Source of the DNA: Cryphonectria parasitica EP155
Taxonomy: Eukaryota > Ascomycota > Sordariomycetes > Diaporthales > Cryphonectriaceae
Length of the DNA stretch: 64,000 nucleotides
Direction: 5' to 3'
Assembly: GCF_011745365.1 (NCBI RefSeq)
Contig: NW_024468913.1
Span: forward strand, 62,001 to 126,000
Shown here: piece by piece, positions 17,023 to 35,100 of the stretch
How the letters are laid out: every line of letters begins with the position of its first letter
How positions within the stretch are numbered: the first letter of the stretch is position 1
Translations under genes and position numbers: made by a program
The notes under the pieces: generated by a model
What the model was told of the DNA's origin: nothing
The model's input: the letters and a program-made list of their open reading frames with translations, nothing else
Database searches by the model: none

Positions 17023-17913
17023 CTATTCATTTATGCGATGAAGCCAGACCTGCTGCTCGTCGCGGGCGCTGTAGGTGCTCGCACCCAGTATAGCCTGCAT
17101 CTGTTCGATCCCAACAAAGAGAATATCGCGCGCGATGAACCAGCGGATACCCTCGGAGCATGGTGGGCTGGTCAGGCTTCCCTGGTAAGTCCAGTACTCG
17201 TTAAACCAGCTGACACTATCGAGAGCGAGTGAGAGGTCAAGAGTAGCCTCCTGGACGGTGTCAGTCTCATTGAAACCGATCATAGCCGGCAGCTGAGCGA
17301 AGAAAGCGTTGTCCACGTTGCCTGGGTCGATGCGGAAGGCAAGAACAGCTTTCTCATGGCCCGAGGCATTGACGTGCACGAAGTGCATCTCGGCTTTGGA
17401 GCGCATGCCCCCCACCGTATGGTCGGCCGGCGCGTGCAAATGCCACCCCGTTAAGTAGGTAGTCTCGTTGTCGTAAGTCAAGGATGGGGCCGAGGTATAG
17501 TCCTCGCCTTCAGTATGTGATGGAGTGAAGGCAGGCCCGAAATTCCAATTGAAGAAAGTCCCTGTCACGTTGCTGTCGTACTGAAAGGTCGGTCGATGAT
17601 TTGATGCTAGGCCATTGGAAAGGCTTAGAGCGATAGGCGATTGTTGTGTGCCGGTCTGACAGAGACCATAGTCTGCATTAAATATTAGTGTTGAGTAAGG
17701 AAAGCCTTGCTGACATGTGTCAAGCTCGAAGGGCTTACCTGGGTTCATGCTGCCCCAGTCAAAGGACGCTTGATAAGACCAGTCTGGCGATACTGTTGCT
17801 CTGTCTGCAAGATGTCTTGCTTTTACAGCAAGCAGCTGGTGGTTGTCATGAGTTGGGCATGCCATGTTGCTTGCCACTAAGGAGAGTACTGCTATAAAGG
17901 TAAAGAGCGTCAT
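17023..17913 (-). CDS. Secreted alpha-type carbonic anhydrase
   Basis: Exons 17913-17739 and 17672-17023 (minus) give 274 aa. The enzyme hydrates CO2 to bicarbonate. A signal peptide (MTLFTFIAVLSLVASNMA) opens the protein. The alpha-CA zinc ligands are in GWHLHAPADHTVGG and AEMHFVHVN, with QSPIAL and the late YWTYQGSLTSPPCSEGIRW motif also present. The 66-nt intron (17673-17738; GTAAGC...CTCAAC...TGCAG) has no stop and is a multiple of three, so the frame stays open without splicing; removing it gives a normal MNP-DYGLC join. Several NxT/S sequons fit an extracellular protein. The start was taken at the ATG at 17913, because the in-frame codon upstream is not ATG. Confidence 0.9.
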   Translation of the reverse strand: MTLFTFIAVLSLVASNMACPTHDNHQLLAVKARHLADRATVSPDWSYQASFDWGSMNPGKPFELDTCQQGFPYSTLIFNADYGLCQTGTQQSPIALSLSNGLASNHRPTFQYDSNVTGTFFNWNFGPAFTPSHTEGEDYTSAPSLTYDNETTYLTGWHLHAPADHTVGGMRSKAEMHFVHVNASGHEKAVLAFRIDPGNVDNAFFAQLPAMIGFNETDTVQEATLDLSLALDSVSWFNEYWTYQGSLTSPPCSEGIRWFIARDILFVGIEQMQAILGASTYSARDEQQVWLHRINE

Positions 17914-18060
17914 TTTGATAAAAAAAGGAGTCAAAAAAAGAAGTGAATATGAAAGAATGTACTGATAGCTTCTATGCTTGGTAAGGAATAATATGTTAAT
18001 GATTGTGAAAGCTATAAAAAGCAGTTACCAGGCACTAAAATATCCTCTGCTGAGCATGCT

Positions 18061-22112: not shown

Positions 22113-22119
22113 CTGAGTA

Positions 22120-23956
22120 AGTCAAAGCACCCACTTCACATCACCTGATCAGCCACACCATATATATACACATATATTTGTTATATATATTCCTCATTCT
22201 ATTCAGCCACCACGATGCAGTCCTCTTGTTCAGTAGGCAATTCGATATCGCTCTCTTCATCCTGACTATCTGTATGTCAATTGACTGCATTTTGAGCACT
22301 CCGTATATCGTCAATATCTGCAAATCTCGAATTTGGGCTTGTATCAACTCTTCTTCTTTTCGTTGGCCTTCTAGCCTCAGCCTGCTTTTCTAGTACCTCG
22401 ATCTTCTCTAAAGCCTGAGCCAGTTAGAAGTCCCTCTGGCTAAATGCTTTTCATATCTTTCTGAAGAGTATTTGTTGTATTGGGGTTGTTGAAAGTTGAT
22501 GCTGGTTCTTCTGTAGCTTGTGGTATATATCTTTAGCCTTGAGAGGAGTTGGAAAGGTGGCTAGCTGGCTTGAGGAGGCTTTCTGAGTAAGCTGAGATGC
22601 TGTTGATGCTGTTGAACTTGAATTTGCCTTGGCCTGGATATGCTGAGGAGTGTTCTCGAGAAGAAGAGGGCTGAGGGGTGGCTTAGAGGGCCTGACAAGC
22701 CATAAACCAGAAGCTTTCTACCCTGATTTGATATTCTGGCTCGAAAGGCCTTCCAAACGAGCCTCATAATAAGTCTTTAGGAATAAACGCTTGCTAAATA
22801 CTGTTCAATCCCCCTACTGGCTTATATAGCTGACCTTTCGTCTGTATACCCTCTTGAGAGACGAGAAGACCCCTAGATCGAGAGGTTGAAGCACGTAAGA
22901 GGTATGAGAAGGCAATTAAACCAACAGGATGTTGTTTTGATAGCATTGCTACATAAACTCGTTAGTTGTATGGCTGCTGTGGCCATCCAGAACTGATAGT
23001 CTAGCCTCTGAGGGGTCTGCTGGCTTGCTGCCTGGGATGAAGATCTTTGCCAGTCATTCAAGTGCTATAGCATTATCAGTCCATCCGTTCTTCGTAGATA
23101 TGAACTGCTAGCCTTTGAAAGAGTCTAAGAGAAGAGGAAACTACTGTTATTGAACCGTTTGCCTCTTGAAAATTACCAGAGGAAGGAGATAAGCACCTGT
23201 AGCAGAAATACACTCGAGAAAAGAAGTCCAGAACCTCAACCCAGGCTCTTTTTGATGGATTGAACATGAAGAAGAGCTACCAAGAACTAATACATTCTCT
23301 CCTTAGCTCTCAATTATCCCAGCCTTATCCATATTCCACTGATTAGCTAGCTTAATAGCTTGAATTTAAGGAAGATCGAAAAGATGAAACCAAGGCTGTA
23401 TTACCTTTGTTGTAGCTCCATTAATTCGTTCAGAAGCTGGCTGTTGATTCTTTCGAACCTGTATCTCTGGATTTCTCCTCAAAAAGCCCTCAGTCCACCT
23501 CTTTCCTAGCTCTTGAGAATCTTTTTGGACCTTGAGAATCCTCCGAGCGAAATGCCTTAGTTCTGAGTGGCTAGGAGGAAGCCTTAGGCTCTTCTGAACT
23601 AGGATCCATTGAGCCAGTTCTCTCTCCTGGTCAATAGAAAGCTTTTGCTGGTTTTGATGAGCTAATCTGTGCGATTCCGTTCCTGCTAGACGATCTCGAA
23701 GAGTAGCCCTTGGAATCCCGTACTTGCGCGAGGCTTGTTTCTGTGACAAGCCTTTTTTGACAGCCTCGATAGCCTCAGCTATCTCATCTTCGGTGTATGG
23801 CTTCATGATAGTCGTATAAAGGCCCTGTGAAAAGATGAAGTTGATTGAATTAGAAATGGGTGAGAAAAGGCTATCAAAGTAAAGGGGGTGGAAATGGCGG
23901 TGTGGCTGATTAGGGGTGACGGGAACCAGGGGTGATGTGAAGTGGGTGCTTTGACT
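22120..23956 (-). mobile_element. Fot1/pogo-type DNA transposon, 1837 bp, TA target duplication
   Basis: Both ends carry terminal inverted repeats beginning AGTCAAAGCACCCACTTCAC; the first 26 bases are identical in inverted orientation, and after a small insertion in the right end both continue with ATCAGCCACACC. Each end is flanked by the dinucleotide TA (22118-22119 and 23957-23958), the target duplication of Tc1/mariner/pogo elements. The size (1.84 kb) and the TIR start AGTCAA.GCACCC are typical of Fot1 relatives. The single internal reading frame, on the minus strand, is a dead transposase. The element could only move if a transposase were supplied in trans. Confidence 0.9.
22561..23806 (-). 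pseudogene. Fot1-like transposase with about 11 in-frame stops, no frameshift
   Basis: From the ATG at 23806 the frame opens with a CENP-B-type helix-turn-helix (MKPYTEDEIAEAIEAVKKG, QKQASRKYGIPRATLRDRL) and then a DDE domain: WNMDKAG (first Asp), FLECISATG, LSVLDGHSSHTTNEFM (second Asp) and VLQPLDLGVFSSLKR (third Asp). About eleven stops interrupt it, beginning at 23366, yet the frame never shifts from the start to about 22560. At most of them the family has Trp or Gln (for example FKG-stop-QF, LE-stop-LAKIF, FM-stop-QC), meaning TGG to TAG/TGA or CAA to TAA. This is the signature of RIP. Confidence 0.85.
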
Positions 23957-24246
23957 TAGCTGATACGCGAACTCACGACATCTAGGGCTATAGAACATGA
24001 ACTATGACAAACTGAGATAGATAACCGAGGAGGTATACATAAGTGATTCATAAAGAATGTCAGGTTATTCCTGCCCCTATGCATGGGAATTGGTAATGAC
24101 TGTTATATTTGTATCTTATAGTAATGACTGGTGCGTTTGGTTTCTCACAAAAGTTCAGAATTTGAGCAATAGAAGCCTACTGTGGCCCGCATGTGTCTTG
24201 GAATGTCATGCCCTCAAGAATTTGAGACTGCACCTCCAAAGCCATC

Positions 24247-24897
24247 TTAAGATGCAGCGGCACAAGCCGCTTCGCAAGCAATAGCAAGCGGTGGAAATTC
24301 CTCAAGTGGTAGGCAGGCTACTTCGCACGCCAACTCCTCGCCAGTGCTAGCGACAGCATCCTCTATATCCTGCACAGAAATCTTGTCTCAGCTTATTTCA
24401 TACGTTGAATTGAGTCACAGAAATACTAGAACTTACACGCTTCACCTTCGCATCTGCAGCGGCACAAGCTGCTTCGCAAGCAAGAGCAAGCGGGGGGAAT
24501 TCTTCAAGTGGTAGGCAGGCTAGCTCGCATGCTAGCTCTTCTCCAACGCTCTTTATAAAAGTCTAGATTCAGCTGGCTTATACTTTGAAGTATTGGTCAT
24601 AGAAATACTAAAACTTACACGCTTCGCTTTGGCCTCTGCAGCAGCACAAGCTGCTTCGCAAGAGCTGACCAGCGGAGGAAAGTTGTCGAGCAGTTGGCAA
24701 GCCTCTTTGCATGCTAGCTCTTCGCCGGCACCCTATGAGAAATCTGATTTTAGCTTATTTTGTGCTTATATGTATTCGTAACGGGATATATAACTTACGC
24801 GCTTGCTTACGGTTGTCTGAAGTCGATCCATGCTTGTCTGAGGGAAAGCAGAAACCATTGAGGCCATGAGGCAAGTCGAGATAGCAGAGAAACGCAT
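24247..24897 (-). CDS. Secreted Kex2-type repeat precursor of alpha-hairpinin-like peptides
   Basis: Four exons (24897-24799, 24732-24619, 24550-24437, 24369-24247), joined at three perfect GTAAGT introns of 66-68 nt, give 149 aa. Exon 1 holds a signal peptide (MRFSAISTCLMASMVSA) and ends in SKR. Exons 2 and 3 each encode one 38-aa unit ending in KR, and exon 4 encodes a final unit. Every unit has the pattern CX3C-X12-CX3C (Cys 41/45/58/62, 79/83/96/100, 124/128/141/145) around a conserved FPPL centre. CX3C-Xn-CX3C is the alpha-hairpinin signature, and Lys-Arg is the site of Golgi Kex2 protease. I infer that the precursor is cut into three disulfide-bonded helical-hairpin peptides and secreted. 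The role is unknown: peptide signal, antimicrobial or effector. No homologue is recalled. Confidence 0.82.
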
Positions 24898-26201
24898 GTT
24901 GGCTGACGGAGTGTAATAGTGAGTGAAGAGTGAACAGGGTTTGTAATTGACTTTGGTTTGATGTTTCTGTATTGTGATTGTGCTTGAGAGTTCGAAGACT
25001 GAATGTCAGAACTCGGAGTCATTCTTGCCATATATATACTTTTCTGGCGTAACTATAAATTGCCTTTCACGAAATTTTAAGATATCGAGAACGCTTATGT
25101 TTTCCAGTTTCAATATATCATGATTCATAGCTCTTTTGCCAAGCATTAACTTCAATTCCGTTTTCAGCGATTCTGTTTCCCTATTTCACATATTCATACT
25201 ATACTAGTCTTTATATCACTTCGTAGAATACCAGTAGAATACTGCTCAGGTGACTTATGTATATATATCGCTGAGAAGCTATTTTCAATCCCTTTGGCTT
25301 CTTTCGACCGAGACATGAGCCTCATTCCGTTAGCGTAGTATTCACGTGGGACTTCCCGTGTTCTTGCGAGGCTCTAAGGAAGTATTTCATTGTTGTCTTC
25401 TAATTCACTTTCCTTTATCAGGGAAGGCCGGTTGCTTCTTCGTGCCACGTGCTTCCTAGCTCAACTTGGACTCTGAATCAGTATCAACGAGTCAAACATA
25501 TGACGTATACTGAGAATGATCTTGTTTACCTTGTAACCTCTAACATGCTTGAAAGGTCCTTTCCGCCGGGCCGCATGCTTTTTCGGATTGATGGAAATCG
25601 GCAACGTTTTCAATTAGAAATGTCAACCAAAGTTGCAGAGCAAATTGCGCTGCCAAGACCCAACTTTTACAAAAGCGGAAGTTGTATTCAATCCAGCCGG
25701 TGGCATATTACGTAGCGCATCTTCGAGCTCTTACGCTCAACGTCAGCATCCTGCTCGCCAGGTTGTCTTAACGCCAACGAAATAAATATTAGGAGAGACA
25801 TTGATAACAAATCTGTCTCCATTCAGCGCGTGATGAAGATGTTAAAAGAAATAAAGAAAGAACAAAAGGGAGAGAGAAGCAATTGGCCTATAGTTTGACC
25901 TAATCCTTGGCCTTTGAAGCCCTATACACGCCAATCATCAGTTCTAGATTTTAGGGTTAGCCCACTGGTAGAGGAAATGTGGCAAGTCCGTCTCTTGGGG
26001 TCAATGCTTCTAGCATTTTTCTTCCTTGGAATAGCAACAGTGCCACCTTCTTCCTATTTCTTAGAGCAGACAACAACAGAGTTCTTTTTTTTCTCTTCTC
26101 ATTACTCTGCCCGACCCGCCTCATCTAGTTTTCAGACAGGTTTCCTACATTGCACTCCGGGGCGAGTGGGTGCTTCAGGATGCAGTCAAGCTACTCGAGC
26201 G
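24898..26201. other. Intergenic upstream of the repeat-peptide gene
   Basis: The first 200 bases should hold the promoter of the minus-strand repeat-peptide gene. The rest is moderately AT-rich, and no frame in it has domain resemblance. Confidence 0.4.
25031..25038 (-). promoter_or_regulatory. TATA-like box of the repeat-peptide gene
   Basis: TATATATA lies about 135 bases upstream of the ATG at 24897, in a position suited to a strong, regulated fungal promoter. Position is the only evidence. Confidence 0.35.
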
Positions 26202-26520
26202 CGATGATGCCGAATGAGTAAATATCAGCAAGGACGCCATATGGTCGGACGGAAAAATCTATAGCGCCGCATGCTTGGCCGCAGCGAGTTTGCAGGGCGA
26301 GGCTATCTGCTGCGGACTTGACTAGTCCGAGATCGGCGATGAGGACCTGGAGGGGGTTCCGTTGGACCAGCAGCTTCTCCAGCTTGAGTTTGCGGCTCGC
26401 TAGGTTCTTCTTTCTGTGGGGAAACGCTAGGCCGTCGAGCATTTGACTGAACGCGGTGATATATATGGATACCTGAGTGAAGCCCTTGCCTAGGATGTTT
26501 TCGTGGGGGTTGTACGACAT
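26202..26520 (-). pseudogene. Protein kinase catalytic-domain relic
   Basis: The minus strand reads NPHENILG, MLDGLAFPHRK, then a degenerate catalytic loop (KLKLEKLLVQ in place of HRDLKLENLLV), VLIADLGLVK in place of the DFG segment, and VLADIYSFGIIALE (subdomain IX). The invariant His-Arg-Asp, DFG and APE elements are damaged and there is no N-lobe or C-terminal part in frame. It is a truncated Ser/Thr kinase pseudogene. Confidence 0.6.
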
Positions 26521-28018
26521 TAGGATATACTGCTGCGCCGATCAGTCCGGCCGTGTAGTCGAGATCGTTCCGGGCCACCGGAGTCGGGACCAAGAGGGAG
26601 AGACAGGGCTTAGCAGGGTGAGCTCCGCCGCCCTTGAAAGAGAAGGGCTTTCGACCCTGCCCCCCTCCCGGGCGCACCACGCTGTCTGGTCCGGTCCGCT
26701 ATGCAGTTCCTGACAAGATCCAGCAGGTTCTGGGTACACGCAGTCCGCACAGTCAGTCTCATAATTCAGAAACTTTATCAAGAGCTGGGGCTGCTCGTAG
26801 AAAGTCCCAGCCAATCCAGGGCAAGATTATGCTTTCTACCAAGCTCATAAACTACGATCCACGACTCATTTACCCGTTTGAAGTTTCATGCTTCAACATC
26901 GCCCAGATGCACTATCTTATTACAAGGTCGACTAAGAAGTCCGCAGTTAATAGTTGAGGTATTTTTGCTTGCAACTATCTAAGATTGTGTATCAGGTCCA
27001 ATAGAATAAGTGTCTGAGGACAAATGGTTCTATTGAAGAGTAGACGTTAATTGCAACGAGACTACTAGAAGATCTAAGGATGTAGGAGGGCTGTTGAGTC
27101 TAGGTCTTGACGTAATCCAGTCTTGATAAACGTTGGCCACTTCTCACGAGCTTACTCCGCTTTTTTCCTCCTCAATTATATCGCTGTGCATGCGTGTATT
27201 GTGCTCACCACAATAGTATTCATACCTGCAAACTTGACTCAGTCTCAGTCTCTCTCAAAATGAAGCATCAGCTTAGTTTCTGCCTGATTTGTGGCTATGA
27301 TAGTGGACATACCAAATCTTGCTATACACTGTTGAAAGTGACACATTAGTCCACCGATTTCTACGAGGATACTGTACGTAAAAATGTTATTTCTTTTTCA
27401 TGTCTTCCAATAGATACTAAGAAACCAGAATTTTCCTTTTCTTTTTTCTATTCTAAACTCTCTGAATAAGTCTAGGGCACGTTTCTTACCCTGCTCTTCT
27501 GCTCATGTGCCCTTCGTTTGCTATCCTTCCTTTCATTAATTTTTCATTATCTTGATCCTTGATTACGTAATTAATATTCTCCATCTGACCATTGTTGCGT
27601 GTGACTTAAATCCGTAGCCTACATCTCGGATAGATTACAGCGATTAGGTGGGGCTCAGGTGGCATCCTCTCTTTTATTTTCTTTTTGCTGATTAAAGCTA
27701 ACGATGTCTCAATTAGATGCTGCTCAAAAATTGCTATCATGGTTCAAGAATACTCTCTTTTAGCTGTTCCACTATGGCATTTTAACTCCAGAGAGAACTT
27801 ACAGGTACATTTGATCACGAGAGCTTACTATTCTTTTCACGTATACTGAGATCAATTTCTGCAATCTAGAGGGAGCTAGTATCTCTGTAACTTGGAAGCT
27901 TGATGCTATCAAATATAAAGATTATGACATATATTCGTTTGCTCTATGCCATATCAGGTAGGAGATTCACGGGTGTGATGATTTGACTTTGGTTGGAACC
28001 AAATCTACTCAACACAAC
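26521..28018. other. Intergenic, nothing firm
   Basis: A short plus-strand frame at about 27261 starts ATG and reads SFCLICGYDSGHTKSC before a stop, and an open piece near 27870-27957 reads ISVTWKLDAIKYKDYDIYSF. They might be parts of a decayed gene, but no family is recognised and no join is convincing. The rest is low-complexity or AT-rich. Confidence 0.35.
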
Positions 28019-31358: not shown

Positions 31359-32195
31359 CTAAATGCTCAAGAAAGTATAGTTGCCAGCATCGATGGCATC
31401 AACATATTCTTGAGCATACTCCTGGTTGGTCTTAGCAGGACCACAAGTGCCTTGCGCTTCGTTCGTGTTGTTAGCGGTCGTATTCGTGATGCGCTTCTGG
31501 TTAAGGACAGAGCAAGCAGCATAGAAAGACCACGGCTCCTGCTTCCAGGCGTTGTGGCCTTTGGGAAAGCCAGCTAGAGCGTACTGGGCACCAGCGTGCG
31601 ACATCTTGTCGAACTTCTTCTTGTTGTAGGATTTGTTGGGAACGAGAGTCCCTTTGACGTAAGGCTTCTTGCTTTTCCCCTTGGCGGGGGTGTATTGGGT
31701 CCATCCCGTAATTTGTTCGTAGTTAATACCCCGGATAGCAGCGAATTCCATCTCCTCAGGATAGCGGTAGTGTTCCTTAAGCGTCTGCTCGACGTCGATG
31801 AGATTGGTGTAGGTATGAGCTTCATAAATATAGCCGTTGTTATTCAACATACGGCTGATCCAGTTCTCACAAACAGCCTTATTTGACGAGAAGGAGACAT
31901 ATCCATCGTTGTCTTTCGATATAAGTCCGGCGCCAATGACGTGATTGTAAAGGGAGATGTCTGGCTTGATGTCGGTGCCAATAGTGTATCCCCGGGCCCA
32001 CAAGCCCTGAGCACTTTTGATCTCATCGGGGCTGCGCCTGTCAGCGCGGTAGACGACGCAGACGCCGCTTTGACAAGGGAAAAGCGCGCGCGTCTCAGGC
32101 TCAGCAGTGCCATTAATGGGAGCAGCCAAGCCGAAGATATTGAGCGTACTGGCGGCGAGAAGAAAAGAAAGGACGGTGTCTTTGTTGACAAACAT
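31359..32195 (-). CDS. Secreted heat-labile-enterotoxin-A-like ADP-ribosyltransferase
   Basis: A single-exon 278-aa protein with an N-terminal signal sequence (about residues 1-25). It matches the enterotoxin-A family of the R-S-E class of mono-ADP-ribosyltransferases. Visible motifs are the NAD-binding Arg in VVYRADRR (Arg50), the Ser-rich strand GYVSFSS (about 99-104) and the ExE motif in PEEMEFAAIRGI (Glu148 and Glu150). The early CQSGVC pair and later cysteines suggest disulfides, as expected outside the cell. Such fungal genes are best known from insect-associated Hypocreales and are regarded as candidate effectors; the target is unknown. The frame is intact with no break. It is flanked by AT-rich gene-poor DNA on both sides. 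Confidence 0.88.
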   Translation of the reverse strand: MFVNKDTVLSFLLAASTLNIFGLAAPINGTAEPETRALFPCQSGVCVVYRADRRSPDEIKSAQGLWARGYTIGTDIKPDISLYNHVIGAGLISKDNDGYVSFSSNKAVCENWISRMLNNNGYIYEAHTYTNLIDVEQTLKEHYRYPEEMEFAAIRGINYEQITGWTQYTPAKGKSKKPYVKGTLVPNKSYNKKKFDKMSHAGAQYALAGFPKGHNAWKQEPWSFYAACSVLNQKRITNTTANNTNEAQGTCGPAKTNQEYAQEYVDAIDAGNYTFLSI

Positions 32196-35100
32196 ATTGA
32201 AACAGGATGGTTTGATCGCAAGTCAGCAAAGTGTGTAAAGATCGAGGAAGGAAAGGCAAGCAATGATGACTGGGTGTGTGCGTGATGAGATTGATGATCT
32301 AGCAACATATCATGAAAGCTATGTAGACATGCTTTATATATTCTGGCACGAGTCTGTATTTTCTGCTGAAACTGCTTAGTGAAATCTTTCCAATGGCCCA
32401 CTAGTCTGTGCTGTTCTCTGTCTGCCTTGCAAAGAGAATGACATTAAAAATTCCCCCATTATAGAAACCTTATTCTATCATCCATTCATGCTAGAATCAA
32501 GCCAAAAAGAAATTCCATAATACTGGGAAGCTCATTCTGTTCGTTCATGCCAGAATGAAACCACAATAAGGTCATCTTTAAAAGCCCATCTTGTATATTC
32601 GTTTTTTTGCTCTTGGCTTAAGCAAGCCAAGTCTTAGCTATGTTTGCCTTGAATCAGTTGCACTGCCAATCTCAATAAGCACATAGCGCAAAGATACAAT
32701 CTGGTGAATAAACAAATGCTAAGCATTAATATGATGCGCTGTTCAATATGCAGGTCTGGACAGAGTGGTGCTTTCAAACCTCAGTGTTAGAGTTAATCTG
32801 GCAGGGAATCTAAGAACTGGATATATGTTCTTACATTCATTACCATTAGCTAGATCATTGTACATAACTCTTCTGTGTTCATTCTTGGTATTATTTCTTT
32901 TACAGTGATAGTTTTACTGCCAGTGAGTACAAGTCTTGATTAGCTGTCTAACTATCATCAATTGTTAGAAAGCTCTATTAACTCAGATGAAGTTATGTAA
33001 TTCATCAATTATGATTCATTATTTTTGCTTTGTAGGAAGGGCTTTGCATGAAAACTTACGGGCTTTCAACCCAGTCTTGTATTCATTCTCAACGCGGCTG
33101 TGTTAGTTGAAACGCCTTGGCTGGTCTGCGCCACAGACATAATCTTGCCCAGCTTCTTTTTGAGTCAGTCGAATATACAAAAACGCCTTGCCAATACAGC
33201 TTCTAGTATTTTCTAAAGTTTGCCAAGCAAGCGAACAAATGTGCGTAATGTTCCTATTTCTGGTTCAGATTTTGTCTTAAGCATCCAAAGATTGCCAACA
33301 TTAGTGATGTTCAGTACTTAAGTACTCATAAGACAGGCTTACTGATGTCATAAGTGGTTTTGTGCATCTGACTCTCTTGTGTTAGGAACATCGTCTTGGT
33401 CGACATATCCAGTCTATTCAATAGTCCAAAAACCCTGCTATACTCATAAGAAATGACGAATCATCCTTCCCCTCTCTTTGGCCTTGCCTCTCAGCTCGCC
33501 ATTTCCTGTATTTGCTGTCCTGGAAATCATTTCAAATTGCCCCTCCTTCCTTCACTCAAGTATACAGTAAAAGATAATATAGTTGAGATTATGAACCCTT
33601 CGAGCCCTAAGCGTATCCTCTTGGACAACCCTGTTACAACGACATGAGGAGTACCCCATCCCCAATAACGACCACAACAAACTTCTGAATAGCCTTTTGC
33701 CCCATAATACGGACTATCAGTGGTATTTGCATGCCGATAGCCCAGATTAGCAAAGCAGAGCTGTTTTGCATATATACAGGAGCTGGACGAGATATGAGCA
33801 GATTGCTCTGCCTACACAGAAGACAAGGGCTTTGCGAATACAGCGGAAAAAGCAAGATAATCTTCTGAAGAAAGTTACAAAAGATCTCACGAAGACCTCT
33901 GCCACTGTTTTCTTGGTTGCAATTTGATAGCTCTATAGTGAATCGGGTAATATGTTAATAGGTGAGAGTCATTTCATTGTATAGATAATCGACCGAGTTT
34001 TGATTGGCTAGATTTGACTCAGTCTTCGCTCAGTACCAAAAATTTCAAATTGGCTTGATTCTGTGGTAAGGCTGATGTGTCATCCATACCAGACTTTAGA
34101 TAGTGAGCTTGTGTGTAGACTAAGACGGGGTTTAGAACTGCGATCTGTCGACCATTGATAGAAGAATGTAATGCTCGGCATGAAACTTGTTGGAAAGATC
34201 TGAACAGCAGAAATTGAGGATTTTGAACTAATTAATTCACAGTTTGCTTCGAATGACTTCGCTTTGTCGCAGCTCAATTATAAATCGAGGTTCGGACAAA
34301 GCCCATTGCCTGCCATATTGGAAATAGCAGAGAATATGACAAGCCAAGTCGCACAGTGAAATAAATAACTCCACGTCCTATCATCCAAAACTGACATAAA
34401 AGCTGAAGCATTGTAGCATACAAGTCCAAGATTGCCGATTACCAAGACATTTTTGAAAAATTCTAATGCAAAATTATTATTATTATTTCTTTTATATGTA
34501 CTCTGAGCGTCCTGTGTATTATGTATATGTTTTGCTTCAAGCATACATTCAGATTGTGGAAAGCAGTGTGGTAATTTTCGGAAGTCCGAACCGATTCTGG
34601 CTACTACTACAAAGCAGGTATCAATCTTGAACACCCTTTTACCCCTGGAGAGGATTGAAACATTTCATTCTTAGTCTGTTCTATAGTATGCTTCCTTTGG
34701 GTTGTTTTTGAGAAGGAGACATTATAATCACTTGACGCGAATTGGCTTCTCAAGGAGGCATGGGAATGGGGGGAGCTTTAACCTATCTGCTAGCACTGGA
34801 ACTCCCCAAATAGTGCCAATGTAGAGCCAATAAAGAATATTGGGTTTCAGCTCTGTGTTATAAAGAACACGTCAGAAAGTTCCTTGCAATGAAGCACGCT
34901 GTTATAACTAGCGGTTGCTACGTGAATTTCGCCGTTCTGAAAGGCTGCAGTAAGTCGGCAATCGTGAGCTCTCTACGTATGATAATAAGCGAGAGCAAAA
35001 CTTTGCTAATGGTAATGAATTACACTTAATCTACATCATATTGGGCATGTTCAGCACTTAATTCCTGGCTGAGTTGCTTTTTCAAACATCGATACCTGCA

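Follow-up and report, generated by a model that had tools for sequence, protein, structure and literature searches.

A putative Kex2-cut precursor of three four-cysteine hairpin peptides, one per exon, in Cryphonectria parasitica EP155

Several kinds of secreted peptide precursor bear on the gene described here. Fungal precursors in which repeated units are separated by sites for the Kex2 protease, the KEPs (PMC6339444, PMC7329392, PMC9769878), are well known, and their layout has been defined by surveys (PMC6339444, PMC7329392), one of which drew on annotated proteins (PMC7329392). Plant α-hairpinins such as Luffin P1 carry the pattern CX3C-Xn-CX3C and are commonly released from multi-module precursors (PMC7191063, PMC11591084); in predicted four-cysteine plant peptides the length of Xn varies, the commonest values of n being 6, 4, 13, 5 and 7, and a five-cysteine (5C) motif allows X4-20 (PMC11591084). 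Fungal hairpin loop peptides (HLPs), described in 2026, are secreted, cysteine-braced helical hairpins made of a single unit of ~62–64 residues with six cysteines, a GP start and at most one or two charges (PMC13357843). Finally, the dikaritins (ustiloxin type), a class of ribosomally synthesized and post-translationally modified peptides (RiPPs), are also cut from repeat precursors by Kex2. The present gene lies at positions 24247..24897, on the minus strand, of a 64,000-nucleotide stretch (hereafter the window) of Cryphonectria parasitica EP155, contig NW_024468913.1, positions 62,001 to 126,000. Taken as a whole, we favour reading it, with moderate confidence, as a secreted, Kex2-cut precursor of three hairpin peptides that take part in a biotic interaction. 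What appears to be new, within the literature searched, is that the repeats between the Kex2 sites are predicted four-cysteine hairpins, each on an exon of its own.

Gene model and precursor layout

After removal of three GT–AG introns, whose splicing is predicted from sequence only, the gene reads through as a single open frame with 153 codons before the stop. Exon 1 covers 24897-24799 on the minus strand, and the features are as follows.

24247..24897, minus: whole gene from start to stop codon, four exons, 153-residue precursor (sequence reading)
24847..24897, minus: putative signal peptide, 17 residues, grand average of hydropathy (GRAVY) 1.21, net charge +1 (by eye and hydropathy)
24799..24846, minus: pro-segment, 16 residues, with KR at the end of exon 1 (translation)
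24733..24798, minus: intron 1, 66 nt, GTAAGT...TAG, phase 0, directly 3' of the KR codons
24619..24732, minus: exon 2, peptide unit 1, 38 residues with terminal KR
24646..24711, minus: CX3C-X12-CX3C core of unit 1 (in-frame motif scan)
24563..24618, minus: intron 2, 56 nt, GTAAGT...AG, phase 0, directly 3' of the KR codons
24437..24562, minus: exon 3, peptide unit 2, 42 residues with terminal KR
24464..24529, minus: CX3C-X12-CX3C core of unit 2 (in-frame motif scan)
24370..24436, minus: intron 3, 67 nt, GTAAGT...AG, phase 0, directly 3' of the KR codons
24247..24369, minus: exon 4, peptide unit 3, 40 residues, plus stop
24262..24327, minus: CX3C-X12-CX3C core of unit 3 (in-frame motif scan)
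25028..25039, minus: TATA-like stretch, ~130 nt 5' of the start codon (seen by eye)

The hydrophobic 17-residue N-terminus, judged by eye and from its hydropathy, ends in VSA. There is one exon per Kex2-releasable peptide, KR closing exons 1, 2 and 3 exactly at the splice junctions. The earlier note on this DNA had given the right coordinates and the three KR pairs, after exon 1 and after units 1 and 2, and had left the strand unstated; the minus strand was chosen because the signal peptide, three strong same-strand splice donors and the cysteine framework all lie on it. A donor scan finds those three donors inside the gene on the minus strand and none on the plus strand, where the single donor, at 24919, falls outside the gene. 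A gene on the opposite strand was thus rejected: plus-strand frames are open across each unit, yet no plus-strand donor is found inside the gene. Codon usage was scored against 3433 reference codons from seven stretches of the window. Each of the four exons scores weakly positive in frame 0, and the introns score negative; on exon 4 an antisense frame outscores frame 0, and the synonymous-codon component, taken by itself, falls slightly below zero in exons 3 and 4. If introns 1, 2 or 3 are retained, a stop codon is reached 10, 21 and 12 codons past KR, respectively, that of intron 2 lying just inside the following exon in a shifted frame. Stop codons soon after retained introns are frequent by chance.

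The Kex2 precursor layout proposed in the earlier note, with a putative signal peptide, a pro-segment and KR before each of the three units, is supported. As for its repeats, it agrees with the definition of a KEP, which asks for three or more with KR, RR or KK between them, occupying at least 15% of the protein (the threshold of PMC6339444); here they fill 120 of 153 residues. The genome has one match to P_proprotein (Kex2-type), and Kex2 processes cryparin in this same species (PMC5048421). The published secretome was prepared with 10-kDa filters, which took out small peptides (PMC5048421). We have high confidence in the anatomy of the precursor, as read from the sequence, and in its predicted processing.

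Cysteine units, predicted fold and duplication

The alignment of the three units has 21 invariant columns, which include the four cysteines and an FPPL turn, and the identical CX3C-X12-CX3C spacing claimed earlier is confirmed, with n = 12 in each. In-frame C-X3-C-X12-C-X3-C occurs at three places in the 64-kb window, both strands counted, and all of them are these units; 60 first-order Markov windows gave 0.03 on average and never more than 1; relaxing the gap to 6–18 adds three places, all single, unrelated and on the plus strand. The cysteine-unit repeat is far above chance in the window. Against the whole genome, unit 2 as a query recovers unit 3 at E 1.4e-13 and unit 1 at E 3.1e-10.

The silent rate exceeds the replacement rate in all three unit pairs. 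Differences are found at 10/23 silent and 2/67 replacement sites between units 2 and 3 (Fisher p 1e-5, site numbers being rounded for this and the following tests), at 12/22.7 and 12/67.3 between units 1 and 2 (p 0.002), and at 14/22 and 10/68 between units 1 and 3 (p 2e-5). In antisense frame 1 the silent/replacement differences are 9/3, 12.8/11.2 and 13/11, so the silent-rate test is strand-neutral. The introns also carry traces of duplication: introns 2 and 3 are identical in 41/52 columns and introns 1 and 3 in 44/64, scores that none of 500 shuffles reached with the splice sites left out, and introns 1 and 2, with 28/41 identical columns, do not rise above shuffles (180/500). Because two of the three intron pairs are related, an intron and its exon probably duplicated as one block, and unit 1 is most simply taken as the most diverged unit.

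The presumed mature peptides of units 1, 2 and 3 have 36, 40 and 40 residues, start with GA, TF and DI, and contain 8–9 charged residues each and no tyrosine. Their isoelectric points (pI) are 4.14, 4.06 and 4.05, their net charges −4, −5 and −9, and their GRAVY values 0.24, 0.76 and 0.66. Their expected masses are close to 3.6, 4.1 and 4.0 kDa, each lower by 4 Da if two disulfides form. Fold predictions and structure searches cover units 1 and 2 of the three. Structure prediction of a unit, a check proposed in the earlier note, gave two-helix hairpins in both AlphaFold models, with a mean predicted local distance difference test (pLDDT) score of 85.2 for unit 1 and 76.9 for unit 2. At E <= 10, the only Foldseek matches in the Protein Data Bank (PDB) are Luffin P1 for the unit 2 model, and Luffin P1 and the walnut hairpin chain Jug r 2 for the unit 1 model, at weak E-values of 5.3–6.5. 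The Jug r 2 chain superposes on unit 1 with template modelling (TM) scores of 0.84/0.82 and a root mean squared deviation of 1.3, and the fold alignments to the plant hairpins have 16–24% identity. The VIA-align 2 lists contained one and two chains, so the absence of other families there carries little weight. On these models the units are likely two-helix hairpins, and an antiparallel packing of the helices is predicted from the weak fold matches.

In the mechanism that we propose, the precursor would enter the secretory pathway, Kex2 would cut after each KR and Kex1-type trimming would then remove the KR, releasing three acidic peptides of 36–40 residues. Each would fold into a hairpin of two helices held together by two disulfides, which by analogy would pair C1–C4 and C2–C3. 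The peptides would most likely have an extracellular role in a biotic interaction, our first choice being that of effector-like peptides in the apoplast of the host tree.

Relatives, described systems and rival explanations

Searches for relatives returned the gene itself. No match at E up to 10 came from NCBIfam, queried with the three units, or from Pfam, queried with these and with the whole precursor; the PDB searched by sequence gave none for the whole precursor, and a lone, chance-like match to uroporphyrinogen decarboxylase (E 0.59) for the unit profile. In a set of 5.8 billion proteins, a search blind to gene models below ~84 or above ~268 residues, the whole precursor yielded 263 candidates, none at E <= 1, and residues 72–153 yielded 1256, none at E <= 10. 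As a control, a carbonic anhydrase query against this set returned 292 proteins at E <= 0.001; since many of the 120 listed bear fungal names, fungi are represented there. The set includes at least one neighbouring EP155 protein, which is not proof that it includes all of them. Searching the genome itself with unit 2 and with unit 1 returned the three units and no second copy of the gene, which is a single-copy and apparently unannotated gene of Cryphonectria parasitica EP155. These searches placed the units in no known, unrelated family (Pfam, NCBIfam, PDB, protein set), and they found no homologue either.

The precursor resembles KEPs in being presumably secreted and in consisting mostly of three KR-separated repeats. 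It differs from them in that every unit is a four-cysteine predicted hairpin encoded by its own exon, and in that the Kex2 sites coincide with splice junctions. The main texts of PMC6339444 and PMC7329392 use none of the terms exon, intron and disulfide; that of PMC9769878 uses intron once and the other two never. Surveys of annotated proteins may well have missed the present precursor. With plant α-hairpinins it shares C-X3-C-Xn-C-X3-C, two predicted helices with a loop (antiparallel by the weak fold matches to units 1 and 2) and a multi-module precursor, and the Jug r 2 hairpin chain of walnut is similar to the units. Unlike them, it is fungal and acidic, is presumably processed by Kex2 instead of a plant protease and has its modules on separate exons; wheat Tk-AMP-X genes are reported to be intronless (PMC7191063). 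No relevant PDB match and no Pfam match links the sequence to plant α-hairpinins, whose members may share the cysteines alone (PMC11591084). The description as a Kex2 precursor of α-hairpinin-like peptides is accordingly supported as anatomy and predicted fold; the cysteine pattern, the predicted hairpin and the weak matches to Luffin P1 and Jug r 2 stand behind it, whereas family membership, for which no sequence relation was found, does not follow. A dikaritin was considered and rejected: the mature units lack tyrosine, and although the genome has at least 36 matches to UstYa (DUF3328), none of those listed lies on the contig of the gene.

The earlier note knew of no fungal system combining α-hairpinin units with Kex2 repeats. 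In the literature, leaving the KEP survey supplements outside the search, we found no report uniting the two in fungi, nor introns placed exactly at Kex2 sites. Kex2-repeat precursors are nevertheless well known, and the impression that the field was unoccupied has been overtaken by the description, in 2026, of the six-cysteine HLP family.

Among possible roles, we rank a host-directed effector first, a competitor-directed antimicrobial second and a surface or self-signal third. The effector function is a guess, which we put forward tentatively. An action of these hairpins against microbes or competitors, in the manner of plant α-hairpinins, seems unlikely to us, even though the cysteine class is shared, the predicted fold is similar, multi-module precursors are common in plants (PMC7191063, PMC11591084) and fungal HLPs, predicted to be antimicrobial, are likewise not cationic (PMC13357843). 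Antimicrobial peptides are mostly positive (PMC7191063, PMC13357843), and these peptides are strongly acidic, with net charges of −4, −5 and −9 and a pI of 4.05–4.14, so the antimicrobial role named in the earlier note gains no support. A trypsin-inhibitor hairpin is unlikely as well, and was rejected, since the stretch from C2 to C3 contains neither lysine nor arginine. Cell-surface or self-signalling peptides, either Rep1-like or a pheromone-like hormone, would agree with a precursor layout like that described for Rep1 and α-pheromone precursors and with a positive mean hydropathy (0.24–0.76). Such a role appears rather improbable, given that the sources consulted do not present Rep1 or pheromone peptides as hairpins with four cysteines, that there is no Pfam mating-factor match, that no pheromone-like core is seen by eye and that the gene is single.

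Two further readings concern what the locus is. It could be no working gene but a transposon-adjacent repeat that is decaying or has never been expressed: a transposon end lies ~290 nt from the stop codon, codon bias is weak, and a protein set that includes a neighbouring EP155 protein has no match. Against this stand four intact exons, donors that match in all three introns, a cysteine framework conserved in each unit and a clear silent-rate excess, which leave it with little probability. Least probable of these rivals is a tandem, reduced offshoot of HLPs. Like HLPs, the units would be secreted hairpins of two helices from a fungus, and in both the cysteines are arranged mirror-symmetrically (PMC13357843); compared by description, however, HLPs have six conserved cysteines in three nested disulfides, ~62–64 residues, a GP start and almost no charged residues, whereas the present units have four cysteines, 36–40 residues, GA, TF or DI starts and 8–9 charged residues. 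None of the terms Kex2, tandem, intron and precursor appears in the main text of PMC13357843.

Genomic setting and meaning

The secreted Kex2-cut precursor of hairpin peptides that we favour is encoded ~86 kb from the contig end, a telomere-like chromosome end that begins with telomere-like repeats; at contig positions 1–180 these are mixed CCCTAA and CCCTAG units, with no uniform repeat. A mobile element lies beside the gene.

22118-23958, frame on minus: DNA transposon bounded by perfect terminal inverted repeats of 28 nt; its frame encodes HTH_psq and Tc5 DNA-binding domains (Pfam)

Apart from the element itself and four short matches to its ends, 42 of the 47 genome matches, at other places, are 73–84% alike. 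Near a telomere-like end, beside a transposon and with no homologue in the protein set, the gene has surroundings like those of effectors.

A Pfam family was found in 5 of 10 nearby frames scanned and in 9 of 10 more distant ones, the families, commonplace apart from one enterotoxin-A-like domain, being UbiA, AMP-binding, nitrilase-type, hydantoinase, permease, MFS, amidohydrolases and carbonic anhydrase; those of the 20 frames suggest no peptide-modifying partner. At 31359-32222 (minus), a single-frame protein, secreted-looking by eye, has a heat-labile enterotoxin A-chain (ADP-ribosyltransferase-type) domain (PF01375, E 2.3e-40), which has one other, weaker match in the genome. A protein-kinase-like fragment at 26191-26541 (minus), below the Pfam cut-off (29.9 vs 31.7 bits), is possibly a pseudogene or part of an intron-containing gene. 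The carbonic anhydrase at 17023-18024 (minus) equals its EP155 record over 274 residues except for a gap of 22 residues, present in the genome frame and missing from the record; the segment resembles a 66-nt intron that could be retained without a shift of frame.

A review cites a paper on silencing of Kex2 in Cryphonectria parasitica whose title speaks of diminished virulence, and warns that Kex2 mutants show growth defects (PMC8528282). The gene offers a candidate Kex2 cargo in a fungus where Kex2 silencing reportedly lowers virulence. To our knowledge, the cargo behind the lowered virulence has not yet been established.

The boldest interpretation, which we consider very improbable, is that of an independently evolved modular precursor of plant-style α-hairpinins that mimics host hairpin peptides, built of one-exon-one-peptide cassettes and with a splicing-controlled peptide dose. 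If it were true, exon duplication would add one peptide cleanly, the introns sitting exactly on the protease sites, and any retained intron would stop translation within 21 codons with the upstream peptides intact, so that splicing would set the dose.

Two kinds of molecule already known come together here, the repeat precursor cut by Kex2 and the helical hairpin braced by cysteines. The exon-per-peptide layout suggests a way in which such precursors can grow, by exon duplication. The gene also suggests that repeat-precursor surveys made from annotated proteins can miss multi-exon members. In the chestnut blight fungus, a small gene that appears to have been overlooked in annotation would thus encode peptides whose predicted fold resembles that of plant defence peptides.
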